A DNA stretch of 40,606 bases, taken from contig JAHFDV010000003.1 in the NCBI GenBank assembly GCA_023248815.1, forward strand, positions 1-40,606, given 5' to 3'. The first letter of the stretch is position 1. The number at the start of each line of letters is the position of its first letter. Of this stretch, positions 13,563-24,871 are shown in pieces. Origin of the DNA: Myxococcales bacterium (GTDB lineage Bacteria > Myxococcota_A > Polyangia > Polyangiales > Polyangiaceae). The notes beneath the pieces were generated by a model that saw only the letters and a list, made by a program, of their open reading frames with translations, was not told the DNA's origin and made no database searches. A program made the translations under genes and the position numbers.

Positions 13563-15578
13563 TCAGCCTGCGCGGCCTTCGACGAGGATGCCCTTCGCGG
13601 TGAGCGCGCGGACGCGCGGCCCCTTGTGCTCGATCGCGAGAACATCGCCTTCGACGACGAGCTCGGTTGCAACGCGTTGCCACGCGCCTTCACGACGAGA
13701 CAAGAGGCGTCCCTTGGCCGAGCCTGCCCAAGCGATGCCAGAGGGACCGCCCGTGACGACGAGAAGATCTTGGAGAGTCTGCACGCGTTCGAGCGAGACG
13801 GACGTCGAAGTCATGCGCAAGGCGTGCCCTCCGCGGCCAACGATTCCGAAAGCGCCGTCGCGGTAGCGCATCACCGAAAGGAGATCGACTTCGCACACGC
13901 GATCCGTCTTGAGCTGCCCATTCGGTGTGATGCGAACGATCGTGCCCTGCGCGCCCGCCGCGAGCGTTCCCGAATCCGGATGGGAATAGACGCCGAAGAG
14001 CCGCGTGACACTTGGGATCGTCAGGTGGCGGGTCATGCGATTTTGCTGGAGCGAAACGAAGACGCCTTCTTCGCCGCCGCCTTTTTTCGCCTGACGGCCG
14101 ACGAGCACGAGCCCGTCGTCTCCGAGGCGTGAGCCACCGTAGAACGTAATGGGCTCGCTCGTGAGGCGATGCGGCGTGAGCACGCCGTCCTCAGAAAGCT
14201 CGAGTACCGAGGCGCGAGCGCCAGCGAAAAACGCTCCGCCGCCTGCCGTCGCGATCGTCGTGTTAAGATCGCTCGCTGCGTAACCGTTCGGGAGGGCGAT
14301 TCGCTGCCACCCCTTGCCTTCGACATGACGAACGATCGCATTCGTATCGACTGCGACGATCGAGCCGTTGTCGAGGAAGGCGGCACTGCGGAGCGCGAGC
14401 GGCGCTTCGCTCGCTTTCAGCGAGAACGTGAACTGGCTCGCGTCGACGGCGACACTCTTGTGCGCGTCTCCCGAGAAACGCGGCACCGAGATCGGAGAAG
14501 GTCCGTCTGCCGAAGGACGCACCACGGAGATCGGAGCACCAGGATTGCTCTCGCGTTCACGAATTTCGACCTTGTGGCCACCCGCGCGAGGTAGCTCCGC
14601 TTCGAACGCTTTACGAATGAGCGGCTCGAGGTCTGCGAAGAAAAGCGCGGCACTGGCGTAGCGTTGACTCACGTCGGCACGAAGCGATTTGGCAATCACG
14701 GCGTCGAGCGCTTCGACGAGCTCTGGACGCGCCGCGAGACTCGGAACGAGACGCGATGAAAAGTCGCGCAAGGGGGCGCGCTCTTCTTGGATGATGCGAC
14801 GCACGACCGTAATCGGATTTTCTCCGCGGCCGAGGTCATAGGCGCGTGCGCCGGTCAGCAGCTCGAAGAGAATCGCCCCGAGCGAGAACACGTCCGTGTG
14901 GGGTCCAACGCGCTCGTTTCCAGGCTCGAACTGCTCGGGGGGTGCGTAGCCGATGGTTGCGCCCGCAAGCGTGACCGTCGCCTTCATGTCGACGGCGTGA
15001 AGCTTGACGAGTCCGAAGTCCGTGAGCTTGGCGACCTCGGTGCCGGACTCCGAAGAGAGCAGAATGTTCGAAGGTTTGAGGTCGCGGTGAATGACGTTTT
15101 GCGAGTGGACGGCTTCGAGACCGAGCACGACCTGCTTCATGATGCGGCGCACGCGTTCGAGCGCGAGGCCGCGCCCTCCCGCGTCACGCACTACCTCTTC
15201 GAGGTTCGTGCCACGCACGTATTCGATGACGGTGAAGGGAAGCGTCAACGAAGCGCCGTCGTTGCCAGGAATCGTCGCGGTCGCGTGATCGTAGAAACGC
15301 ACGATGTGTGGCGAGGGCGGGCCCTTCTGCTCGAACATGCGTAACGCCTGCGCCTCCCGACGGAAGCGATCGAGCGTGTCGTCGCTGACGACGTCGGGGC
15401 GGAGCACTTTGACGATGACGAGGAGCCCGTCGGGGTCGTCCCAGTTCGCCGTGAAGACCCAACCTTGTCCGCCTTCGCCGATACGCTCGCGAATATGAAA
15501 CTGAATTCCGCGCGATCCCGTGAGCACGCGTCCGACGATGCTGTCGCGCACGGCTTCGAGAGTGGCGGAAGGAAGCAT
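13563..15578 (-). CDS. Hanks-type Ser/Thr protein kinase with C-terminal propeller-like sensor region
   Basis: IGEGGQGWVF, VIVKVLRPD, VIHRDLKPSNILL, LTDFGLVKL, GYAPPEQ; C-terminal repeats ~40 aa long. Confidence 0.93.
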   Translation of the reverse strand: MLPSATLEAVRDSIVGRVLTGSRGIQFHIRERIGEGGQGWVFTANWDDPDGLLVIVKVLRPDVVSDDTLDRFRREAQALRMFEQKGPPSPHIVRFYDHATATIPGNDGASLTLPFTVIEYVRGTNLEEVVRDAGGRGLALERVRRIMKQVVLGLEAVHSQNVIHRDLKPSNILLSSESGTEVAKLTDFGLVKLHAVDMKATVTLAGATIGYAPPEQFEPGNERVGPHTDVFSLGAILFELLTGARAYDLGRGENPITVVRRIIQEERAPLRDFSSRLVPSLAARPELVEALDAVIAKSLRADVSQRYASAALFFADLEPLIRKAFEAELPRAGGHKVEIRERESNPGAPISVVRPSADGPSPISVPRFSGDAHKSVAVDASQFTFSLKASEAPLALRSAAFLDNGSIVAVDTNAIVRHVEGKGWQRIALPNGYAASDLNTTIATAGGGAFFAGARASVLELSEDGVLTPHRLTSEPITFYGGSRLGDDGLVLVGRQAKKGGGEEGVFVSLQQNRMTRHLTIPSVTRLFGVYSHPDSGTLAAGAQGTIVRITPNGQLKTDRVCEVDLLSVMRYRDGAFGIVGRGGHALRMTSTSVSLERVQTLQDLLVVTGGPSGIAWAGSAKGRLLSRREGAWQRVATELVVEGDVLAIEHKGPRVRALTAKGILVEGRAG

Positions 15579-20624: not shown

Positions 20625-20660
20625 GAGGCAGGTTCGAAAGAGCCTGCCTCTTTTCTTTTA
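20625..20660. terminator. Strong intrinsic terminator between convergent genes
   Basis: GAGGCAGGTTC(20625-20635) GAAA GAGCCTGCCTC(20640-20650) followed by TTTTCTTTT. Confidence 0.93.
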
Positions 20661-22217
20661 ACGCCCTCTCCGCTGGCGAGTTTCATCGCCGGGCCGCACG
20701 GCTCCGCGGCGGAAGAGTGAAGCGGCTAGGAGGCAGAGGCCCGGCACGACGAAGACGTGGTAGCGGTCCTCGCCGAAGAAGACGGCGTGCGTGAAGAGTG
20801 TCGTCAGGAGAAGGCCCGAGACCATGAGCGCGGCATTCGATGTCGTCGGCGCGCCTGGTACCTTTCCGCGAACGAGTCCGAGCCAAGGTAGAAGAGCGGC
20901 CACGAAAACGAGCGGCCAGGCGAAGCTCGGATTGTGCGAGATGCCCGCGATGAAAAGGACGAGTACGGCGCCGCCGAGAAGCATCTGAAAACGCGCACCG
21001 CGTCCGCGGCGGACGAAGGCGACTCCGCCGAGCGCCGCGAGAAGCAACAGCACGCGATGAAACGCCGTCAGCGCTTCGCGAGACGACGTGCGAATCGATT
21101 CGCTCCAAGGACGCGGGCGACCGGCTTCACGCAAGTACTCGATGGGAAACGATTCGTGATCGAACGTTTGTGACCACTTCTCGGGCATGAGAGCGAGCCA
21201 GCGCCCGGGCGTTTTCCGAATGTTTGCGAGGCCGACGTGGAGCCAGCAGCGATCTTGTTCGACTTGCCCGGTGACTTCGCGGCATCCATCTTCTTTGCGA
21301 AGCGAGTCGAAGCGTCCCGTTGCGTGCGGTGACGCGCCGATGGCGAGATTCCAGCCGGCGTTCGTGCTGACGAGCGCGCAACCGTCCATCACGTTGCAAT
21401 TGCGTGCAGTCCACGGGAGCACGGGTGCGAACGTTCCGACGACGACCGCGACGAGCGCGACGAGCGTGCGCTTCAAGCGAAGGCGAAACGCCGGGCCGCG
21501 CGTGAGAAGAGGGAGCACGAGAAAGGGCAGACAGAGCAATGCCTGCGGGCGAACGAGCGTCCCGGCACCGAGCCAGAGTCCCGCGAGCAGAAAGCCGCGG
21601 AGGGAGCGCGCACGGCACGCGAAGAGAAACGCGAGAACGATGAGCAGCGCCGCGAGCGGTTCGCTCATGACGAGGCCGGAATAGAGGATGAGTCCCGGAT
21701 GAAGCGCGACGAGGAGACCCGCAATGCGCGCGCGGCGTTCGGAGAGAGCGGTCTTCGCGAGAAGATACGTGGCGAGTGCGAGCAGCGCGCCGGTAAGCGC
21801 GTTGGCAAAGGGGAACACGAGGGACGATACGGGTGATTCCGCGAGGTCGACACCCACGCTGCGAGCGAGGATTCGCGCTAGAAAAAGCACCCCGCCGAGA
21901 AATCCGCTGTAGCCGACCGGATAGTGACACCAGGGATGCCAGCGAAGCGCGGCGCCGTCTGCGATGTCGTCCGAATATCCGAAGCCATCGGCGATCCGTT
22001 GCGCTCCGAACGCGTAATAGTGGCCGTCCCAAACGGCAGCACCGCGCGTCGCGATCGCGAAGGCGATGCGCGGGACGAAGGCGACGAAGAAGATCGCCCA
22101 CGCAAAAGTCGCTTCGCTCGAAACGAGCGCCCTGAGAAAACGGGAGCTCGAAAAGAATGCACCGATGCGCGCGAGCGAGGATGAAGCTCCTTTCGCGCGC
22201 TCTTCTTCAGCGATCAA
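20658..22217 (-). CDS. GT39/ArnT-like multi-pass membrane glycosyltransferase
   Basis: Many TM helices; WDGHYYAFGAQRIADGFGY, HPGLILYSGLVMSEPLAALL, HNPSFAWPLVF...EDRYHVFVVPGLCLLAA. Confidence 0.82.
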   Translation of the reverse strand: MIAEEERAKGASSSLARIGAFFSSSRFLRALVSSEATFAWAIFFVAFVPRIAFAIATRGAAVWDGHYYAFGAQRIADGFGYSDDIADGAALRWHPWCHYPVGYSGFLGGVLFLARILARSVGVDLAESPVSSLVFPFANALTGALLALATYLLAKTALSERRARIAGLLVALHPGLILYSGLVMSEPLAALLIVLAFLFACRARSLRGFLLAGLWLGAGTLVRPQALLCLPFLVLPLLTRGPAFRLRLKRTLVALVAVVVGTFAPVLPWTARNCNVMDGCALVSTNAGWNLAIGASPHATGRFDSLRKEDGCREVTGQVEQDRCWLHVGLANIRKTPGRWLALMPEKWSQTFDHESFPIEYLREAGRPRPWSESIRTSSREALTAFHRVLLLLAALGGVAFVRRGRGARFQMLLGGAVLVLFIAGISHNPSFAWPLVFVAALLPWLGLVRGKVPGAPTTSNAALMVSGLLLTTLFTHAVFFGEDRYHVFVVPGLCLLAASLFRRGAVRPGDETRQRRGR

Positions 22218-23772
22218 GTTGACCCGTCCGTCGCTTCAGACGCTGGAGATACGTCTTCGATACTTGCGTCGGCTCGAGCCCGAGCATGCGTGCGAACTCG
22301 ACGAGAAAACCGCGCACATAGACTTCGGCAGGGAGAGCCTCGTAGCGCTCGTCTTCGATTGCGTGGAGATACGTTTTCGAGATCTTCGACACGCGCGAGA
22401 TCTCTTCGATGTCGAGTCCGATCGATTCGCGCATCTTCCGCAAGATCTCTCCGCGGAACTCGGTGTCGGGACCGATCTCGCGAAGGAGCTCCTGTTCGAG
22501 GAGGCGCTGCTCGAGGACGGCGACGGGTGGGCGCTGCGACACGCGCACGCCGCGTTCGGGGGGAGGATCGTCCGGAAAGGTCGAAAGATCGTAGGCGCGG
22601 CGACGCACGGGATCGAGCAACGTATCGTGCGCTTCACCGAGACGAACGAGCTCCGCCTTTCGACCTTCTGCAGAAACGATGGAATGCGCGGCGATCGAGG
22701 CCTCGCCGTAGATGTCTTTGCGCCGCTTCGTAGCGCGCCGAATTTCTTCTTCCGTCGCCGAAGGTACGACGCCGAGCCCTTCGTAGAGCGTCGGACGCTC
22801 GGGAGGAATGGGAACGGGGGCCCGCTCGCTTCGCGCACTGACGAGCGCCAGAATACGCCTCGAAATCCGCTCGAAGCTGCGCCCGGCCTTCGACGCAGGA
22901 CTCTCTACCAAAAGTGGTGAACCGCGACGAAGCGAGAGCATCACCGCCTCTTCTTCTTCGACGTGTCCGAGCTCTTCGAGAAGGATGCCGTAGTGGCGAG
23001 AAGCAAGCACTGCCATCGAAGCGACTAGGTCCGCGTCGGCGCGGAGCCGTACGCGATTCATCACGAGTCCGATATGGCCACGTTGTGCCTCCGACCACGC
23101 AAGCTCAGCGAGTGGACGGTCGAGCTTCTCGAGCTTGCGCACGAGGTCGAGCGGCGATGGAAGTACTCCGAGCTCGGAGAGAGCCCGGTGATAGACCGGC
23201 ACACGAAAGCGGTCCTCGGAGAGCGCGCGCTCGAGACGCCTCAGAAAGAGCGCTCTGACGAAGCGATAGGCCGATTCGATGGCCGGCGGATCCGGCGTGG
23301 CGACGAGAACCGAAAGATCGGAAGCGAGCGCGAGGTCGACCTGAAAGCGACCATTGCCTGGCCCGCCGACGATGACGATGAGATCGAACGGCTGCTCACG
23401 GATGCGCGCGAGCCACTTGCCTTTGCGGCTCGCGCGAAACGCGGTCGGCGCTTCCGGCGTTTCGTGCGGCGCCGGAAGCAACATGAGGCCAGGGACCGAG
23501 GTCGAAACGATGGCGTCTTGAAATTTCTCGGCATCCGAGTCCGTGAGCGTTGCCTCGACGGACGCGGCGGTCGCGCCGAGCTGCGCGTGGAGATTGCTCC
23601 CCGTGAGGTCGGCATCGACCAAAAGGACCGCTTTGCCGAGCTGCGCGAAGTACACCGACAGGCTGACGGCGAGCGTGCTCTTGCCGACGCCGCCACGCCC
23701 GCCGACGATGGTGACGATGCGCCGCGCAAACGTCCGCTCGTCACTCTGAACTTCGACGAGCTCGTCGCTCAT
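22207..23772 (-). CDS. ParA/MinD-like ATPase - J-like - RodZ-like HTH fusion protein
   Basis: GGRGGVGKST Walker A and LLVDADLTGSN; TLYEGLGVVPSATEEEIRRA...LLDPVRRRAYD (J-like, no HPD); LRKMRESIGLDIEEISRVSKISKTYLHAIEDERYEALPAEVYVRGFLVEFARMLGL (RodZ-type HTH). Confidence 0.88.
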   Translation of the reverse strand: MSDELVEVQSDERTFARRIVTIVGGRGGVGKSTLAVSLSVYFAQLGKAVLLVDADLTGSNLHAQLGATAASVEATLTDSDAEKFQDAIVSTSVPGLMLLPAPHETPEAPTAFRASRKGKWLARIREQPFDLIVIVGGPGNGRFQVDLALASDLSVLVATPDPPAIESAYRFVRALFLRRLERALSEDRFRVPVYHRALSELGVLPSPLDLVRKLEKLDRPLAELAWSEAQRGHIGLVMNRVRLRADADLVASMAVLASRHYGILLEELGHVEEEEAVMLSLRRGSPLLVESPASKAGRSFERISRRILALVSARSERAPVPIPPERPTLYEGLGVVPSATEEEIRRATKRRKDIYGEASIAAHSIVSAEGRKAELVRLGEAHDTLLDPVRRRAYDLSTFPDDPPPERGVRVSQRPPVAVLEQRLLEQELLREIGPDTEFRGEILRKMRESIGLDIEEISRVSKISKTYLHAIEDERYEALPAEVYVRGFLVEFARMLGLEPTQVSKTYLQRLKRRTGQLDR

Positions 23773-23881
23773 GATGGAGATTCGTCGTTCATGAGGGAGG
23801 CGGAATATGCCCTAGCTTACGGGGCCTGCGGTGAGAAAACGGCTTGTTGGAAGGCGTGATCGCGGTCTAAGCTCGCGCGCG

Positions 23882-24871
23882 ATGAGCCTCGTTAGATTTG
23901 CCGTAAGCGCCGCTTTCATTTCTCTCGGCTCGATGTGTCAGGGAAAGTCGAACGGGACCGAGACGATCAACAAGGAACAGACGCCGACGACGGCCGCAGC
24001 CGACGTGAACCTCACCGGTGTCGACACGAGCTCGCTCACCCCGCGTGAGAAGGCCGAGTGGTCGAAGTACGTGAGCGAGTTTCTCTCGCCCTGCCCCGAC
24101 GTTCCGGTTTCGGTAGCGCAGTGCGTGACCGAGAAGCGCACGTGTGGGCGCTGTGTGCCCGCCGCGAAGTACTTGGTCCGGAGCGTTCGCGACGGCATGG
24201 CGCGTGAACAGGTCGAGACGGGTTACAAGAACAGGTTCGATGCGAGCAAAGTGAAGTCGATCCCGATCGACGGATCGCCCACGAAAGGCTCCGAGAACGC
24301 GCCGGTCACGATCGTCGAATTCGCGGACTTCTCATGTCCGTTCTGCGCGGCCTACGCGCCCGTCCTCGAGAAGGCTTTCGAAGAGCACAAGAACGAGGTT
24401 CGCGTCGTCTTCAAGTTCATGCCGCTCCCGGGTCACGGTGAGCCCGCACTTCGCTCGGCGCGAGCCGGAATCGCGGCGTGGAAAGTTGCCGACAAGTTTT
24501 GGGAGATGAACAAGAAGATGTTCGCGAACCAGCAACACTTCGAGCAGAGCGATCTCGAGATGTACGCGAAGGACGTCGGCGTTCCGCTCGACAAGTTCAA
24601 GGCGACGATGGGCGCCGACGCGACGAAAGAGCGCCTCGCGCAAGATCAGAAGCTCGCCGATTCGCTTCAAGTTCACGGCACTCCGTCGATCTTCATCAAC
24701 GGACGAGAGTTCAATCTCAAAGAAGACATCAACGAGTGGATCGCGCAGGAAGCGGCCTCGGCGTCGGTTCCCGGCAAGACGGTCGGCGCAGTTCCGAGCG
24801 CCTCTGCGGCTGTTTCCGCGGCGACGCCCGGTGCGAGCGCGGCTCCCGTGACTTCGGCAAAAGCGAAGTAA
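23882..24871 (+). CDS. DsbA-family thioredoxin-like lipoprotein with Cys-rich N-terminal domain
   Basis: Lipobox LGSMCQG; VTIVEFADFSCPFCAAYAPVLEKAF; VHGTPSIFINGREF; upstream CGRC motif. Confidence 0.88.
   Translation: MSLVRFAVSAAFISLGSMCQGKSNGTETINKEQTPTTAAADVNLTGVDTSSLTPREKAEWSKYVSEFLSPCPDVPVSVAQCVTEKRTCGRCVPAAKYLVRSVRDGMAREQVETGYKNRFDASKVKSIPIDGSPTKGSENAPVTIVEFADFSCPFCAAYAPVLEKAFEEHKNEVRVVFKFMPLPGHGEPALRSARAGIAAWKVADKFWEMNKKMFANQQHFEQSDLEMYAKDVGVPLDKFKATMGADATKERLAQDQKLADSLQVHGTPSIFINGREFNLKEDINEWIAQEAASASVPGKTVGAVPSASAAVSAATPGASAAPVTSAKAK

Follow-up and report, generated by a model that had tools for sequence, protein, structure and literature searches.

The window, by which we mean the whole 40,606-nucleotide stretch of DNA analysed, encodes on its minus strand a 521-residue protein (P0001; 22207-23772, ATG start) in which a MinD/FlhG-like ATPase is followed by a J-like module and a RodZ-type HTH. 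An initial annotation had placed this reading frame at the same positions, with no strand given, and had proposed the three modules, which are now backed by profiles, an AlphaFold2 model and structure searches. The features of the locus are as follows.

20658-22217, minus strand: downstream membrane glycosyltransferase (PMT_2), overlapping P0001 by 11 nt (Pfam, locus comparison)
22207-23772, minus strand: fused protein P0001, MinD/FlhG-like ATPase, J-like module and RodZ-type HTH (open reading frame, Pfam, homologues, AlphaFold2 model)
22225-22452, minus strand: RodZ-type HTH, residues 441-516, no TM helix after it (HTH_25; RodZ/YmfM structures 3fym, 2wus and 4gqm in the PDB)
22306-22308, minus strand: F489, equivalent of Y64 of E. 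coli RodZ, an MreB contact (PDB match, PMC4047632, 138-locus comparison)
22318-22320, minus strand: Y485, equivalent of F60 of E. coli RodZ, an MreB contact (same sources)
22579-22791, minus strand: J-like module, residues 328-398 (Pfam DnaJ, helices of the model, Foldseek search of a split homologue)
22699-22707, minus strand: tripeptide GEA, residues 356-358, equivalent of HPD (alignment with HPD-bearing relatives)
22837-23724, minus strand: ATPase module, residues 17-312, MinD/FlhG/FleN fold (Pfam, Foldseek)
23368-23370, minus strand: Walker B position 135, Val here and Asp in 38 of 42 aligned relatives (alignment)
23677-23703, minus strand: Walker A GGRGGVGKS, residues 24-32, with R26 for the signature Lys and the catalytic K31 present (alignment)
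23831-24871, plus strand: divergent upstream gene, DsbA/thioredoxin-like, a recurring neighbour in 8 loci (Pfam, locus comparison)

The profile searches, structure prediction and taxonomic survey suggested in the initial annotation agree with its reading of the modules. Pfam recognises ParA, AAA_31 and CbiA at residues 17-172 of P0001 (E 2e-14 to 4e-13), DnaJ at 329-395 (2e-4; 21.8 bits, under the gathering score of 27.8) and HTH_25 at 443-503 (1.7e-20; 73 bits against a threshold of 24.6). The AlphaFold2 model, built from an alignment of 49 rows, has a pLDDT of 90.7 and a pTM of 0.78 and supports all three modules.

For the ATPase module, the best Foldseek match among solved structures was FleN (5j1j; E 7.9e-11, TMt 0.86), along with FlhG (4rz2, 4rz3), and the matches also included MinD, Soj and McdA structures and FleQ-FleN complexes. 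By both Pfam and Foldseek, P0001 thus has a SIMIBI P-loop fold of the kind shared by MinD/ParA proteins; against the NCBIfam MinD equivalog TIGR01968 it scored 60.8 bits, below the curated cut-off of 212.9. The Walker A motif reads GGRGGVGKST, with Arg at the position of the signature Lys, as had been proposed, and K31, D53 and D55 are intact, while the Walker B residue D135 is replaced by Val. Judged from these residues, ATP may still be bound through K31, and hydrolysis-driven cycling is probably impaired by R26 and V135.

The J module of P0001 is itself sub-threshold in Pfam. However, the J modules of relatives exceed the gathering score (7e-10, 6e-10 and 1e-8), solved J domains are among the Foldseek matches of a modelled split homologue, and a J/HTH profile matches DnaJ chains in the PDB at 7e-11, indicating that the call is real. 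Helices in this region of the P0001 model span residues 329-333, 341-355, 368-386 and 388-398, and the previously suggested module of about 328-400 is set at 328-398. The initial annotation was right that the HPD motif is missing, and its YGE is one register off the true equivalent, GEA. Across 138 loci, HPD is absent from 136, the window included, and 13 of these keep xPD; the two that retain HPD (L201 and L202) both belong to f47, a family other than that of the window, and are likely to represent a less-derived state. The intact motifs of these two J/HTH relatives read YHPDS and FHPDH.

The HTH had likewise been assigned correctly to the RodZ type, at about residues 440-515, and to a protein with no TM helix: the hydropathy maximum past residue 312 is 0.93, and in the model the chain ends shortly after the HTH. 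F60 and Y64 of E. coli RodZ are critical to MreB binding (PMC4047632), and the positions equivalent to Y485 and F489 are aromatic in all 138 loci. By comparison, the outward positions of the recognition helix are mostly variable, so that the evidence leans towards a protein, rather than DNA, as the partner of the HTH. The invariant pair may instead be structural, since the HTH_25 consensus contains it too and archaea among the controls likewise yield HTH_25 matches.

MreB was found in 39 of 39 relatives, and the genome of the window also encodes one (G000:C366:3825-4808). The periplasmic RodZ_C domain (PF13464) was matched neither in P0001 nor in any of the 39 relatives, by a profile that also misses some RodZ-carrying controls. 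Relatives carry a separate, short RodZ-like protein with an HTH and a TM helix; in L112, L113, L114, L116 and L129 these are HTH_25 proteins of 147-162 residues with no RodZ_C match. P0001 is therefore not the sole protein of RodZ type in its group, and we rejected the idea that it replaces RodZ. The genome of the window, which is 84% complete, yielded no second strong HTH_25 match, the next best scoring about 25 bits.

We surveyed 379 genomes of the phylum and identified full-length homologues throughout the window's family and order and in much of its class. The sampled genomes of the class gave an alignment of 84 fused homologues, whose E-values reach as low as 1e-163, indicating that the architecture is not due to chance. 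Peptide patterns used to look for named relatives gave two weak matches. In other classes the match ends after the ATPase and a separate gene with J and HTH_25 domains adjoins it, the two being adjacent in 40 of 40 aligned split loci. As the same modules are encoded elsewhere in the phylum by two adjacent genes, the comparison indicates that P0001 is a fusion of neighbouring ATPase and J/HTH genes. In a tree of the 84 fused and 40 split loci, all the fused forms fall on one side of a single branch, and nearly every taxonomic family forms a single group, which fits vertical inheritance. We regard the architecture and evolutionary history of P0001 as well supported, and close to certain. A second, more divergent fused group, in family f26 (L132, L133, L135 and L214), is placed separately by another tree and probably represents an independent fusion; two fusions in the family are thus likely, and a single one giving rise to both groups is possible. 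In the f26 form the Walker A Lys is Arg (KGGxGRS), and the J region has degenerated strongly.

Loss of catalytic residues is widespread in the ATPase. Among the 84 fused loci the signature Lys is lost in 38, the Walker Lys in 27, D55 in 21 and the Walker B Asp in 10, and all positions are intact in 17, compared with 40 of 40 in the split sample, which consists of the best-scoring clade and keeps the signature Lys throughout. The Walker Lys changed about 10 times on this tree, and at a uniform rate all 10 changes would fall in the fused part with a chance of about 0.03, a weak and sample-biased figure. Weaker-scoring split lineages also lack the Walker Lys (L199, L200, L207, L208, L217 and L218), and the proposal that fusion relaxes the ATPase was therefore rejected; the pattern points to catalytic decay as a repeated, family-wide tendency of fused and split forms alike. 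Since decay is so wide and the Walker B Asp is lost as well, the residues of the window's copy do not support a normal nucleotide-cycling ATPase. At the C-termini of the split ATPases, inspected for a membrane-targeting tail, we found no clear additional amphipathic segment past the last helix of the fold.

Three families (f30, f38 and f39) have rluD flanked by a divergent J/HTH gene (L205, L216 and L206) that has no ATPase beside it. The gene in L216 also directly adjoins selA, with no ATPase in between, and L206 is cut at a contig end, where the HTH part alone is visible. The 379-genome search gave no ATPase match at 1e-20 in the genomes of these families, and the loss may be genome-wide. 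The retention of the J/HTH gene in its slot in all three families suggests that the conserved core is the adaptor, and not the ATPase.

The best split loci have the gene order selA, HNH endonuclease, ATPase, J/HTH, rluD, pgeF-like, rho, prfA and prmC (names read from translations, with HNH, SelA and RluD verified by Pfam on examples), and some fused members retain selA, HNH or rluD as a neighbour. In the window's family, a PMT_2-type gene is next downstream in 13 of 13 loci examined, with gaps of -26 to +71 nt, often -4, and the divergent DsbA-like gene is present upstream in 8. The overlap reported for the window is correct if the glycosyltransferase starts at TTG, a start that leaves the figure of 11 nt uncertain. 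Overall, the neighbours are housekeeping or lineage-specific genes, and no process is named by them.

We propose, with a probability of roughly 0.4, that P0001 is a MinD-fold placement scaffold joined to a RodZ-type adaptor and linked to MreB or another protein. The ATPase part would dimerise or dock as a MinD-type scaffold, the HTH would use helix 4 to bind a protein, be it an MreB-type polymer or some other partner, and not DNA, and the J part would serve as a protein-docking module by which DnaK is no longer stimulated. With R26 and V135, P0001 would perhaps bind ATP through K31 and act mainly as a scaffold, since hydrolysis-driven cycling is probably impaired. Of the earlier suggestion of a positioning ATPase coupled to a cytoskeletal or DNA adaptor, the coupling remains plausible, with a cytoskeletal or protein partner favoured, and normal ATPase cycling does not stand for the window's copy. 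The proposed link to MreB is weakened by the separate HTH and TM protein of relatives, which already supplies an MreB adaptor. A broader extension, which we hold tentatively and consider rather doubtful, is a phylum-wide Min/Par-like placement system with a cytosolic RodZ-type adaptor bearing a repurposed J domain at its core, and in which the dedicated MinD-fold ATPase would have been turned many times into a catalytically silent scaffold, whether through fusion or where it stood, and lost from the locus in some lineages.

Alternatively, the HTH could bind DNA and the MinD/FleN-like part regulate it, as FleN does FleQ. This analogy draws on the FleN and FlhG structures, FleQ-FleN complexes included, that lie closest to the ATPase, on the Xre-like fold of HTH_25, and on the DNA-binding proteins DdrO and SinR among the Foldseek matches of a split homologue. 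Every profile, however, types the HTH as RodZ, and it is the protein-contact face of RodZ, rather than the outward recognition helix, that is invariant across the 138 loci, making a transcription regulator unlikely. A role beside the GT-C glycosyltransferase, as its partner or regulator in surface polymer or lipid modification, would explain the constant downstream PMT_2-type gene, which is probably co-transcribed; yet the pairing is confined to the window's family and rluD occupies that place in other lineages, so that the coupling is lineage-specific and cannot reflect the original function, and we judge the partnership improbable.

The J domain could in principle recruit DnaK to a complex placed by the ATPase, as the fold is a true J fold, basic helix II is retained in the family and one family still has HPD. 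Stimulation of DnaK by J domains requires HPD, and with GEA in the window and HPD gone from nearly all loci, a co-chaperone role of P0001 seems very unlikely. An anti-phage defence or mobile module was considered because an HNH gene adjoins the split form and is weakly matched by HNH models of defence systems. The tree fits vertical inheritance, the setting of selA, rluD, rho and prfA is a housekeeping one, and P0001 itself drew weak generic PADLOC matches and nothing more; we rejected this candidate for lack of PADLOC support, and give it almost no credence.

P0001 shares the deviant Walker A P-loop fold of MinD/FlhG (FleN, YlxH), with FleN and FlhG as top structural matches. It differs from them in R26 and the Walker B Val, in the repeated loss of catalytic residues in its family, and in ending with J and HTH modules where they have a terminal membrane-targeting sequence. 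Its cytosolic HTH matches RodZ structures (2wus, 3fym and 4gqm), MreB-contact aromatics included, but unlike RodZ it lacks a TM helix and the periplasmic RodZ_C and is fused to an ATPase and a J module. The J fold resembles that of DnaJ by profile and model, whereas HPD is missing in 136 of 138 loci and the family has no G/F or substrate-binding parts. McdA, a ParA-type carboxysome-positioning ATPase whose structures were among the PDB matches, has the common ParA/MinD fold and neither J nor HTH, and its genomic context is different. McdA, too, deviates at the signature Lys. In agreement with the initial annotation, which recognised no characterised protein of this kind, a literature search on ParA, DnaJ, HTH, RodZ and MinD combinations, with most subscription journals outside its coverage, found no description of the architecture; one candidate (PMC3986340) was rejected as an incidental word match. 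The family is phylum-wide and apparently undescribed.

If the scaffold-and-adaptor reading is true, P0001 would belong to a conserved cytosolic system linking Min/Par-type ATPases with the MreB-RodZ cytoskeleton, the two best-known bacterial spatial organisers. The series from a split, active-looking pair to fused, catalytically degraded and ATPase-free loci allows one to test which roles a MinD-fold protein keeps once hydrolysis is gone. Annotation would gain one coherent family in place of an "AAA ATPase" and an "HTH protein".

Finally, the fused gene's start codon is where a tiny out-of-frame reading frame (ATGAACGACGAATCTCCATCATGA; 23769-23792, minus strand) terminates, and the opening bases of this frame are similar to the initial codons of the gene itself. 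Elsewhere in the window, positions 13563-15578 (minus strand) encode a protein with a Ser/Thr protein kinase domain (Pkinase, 1.5e-38).
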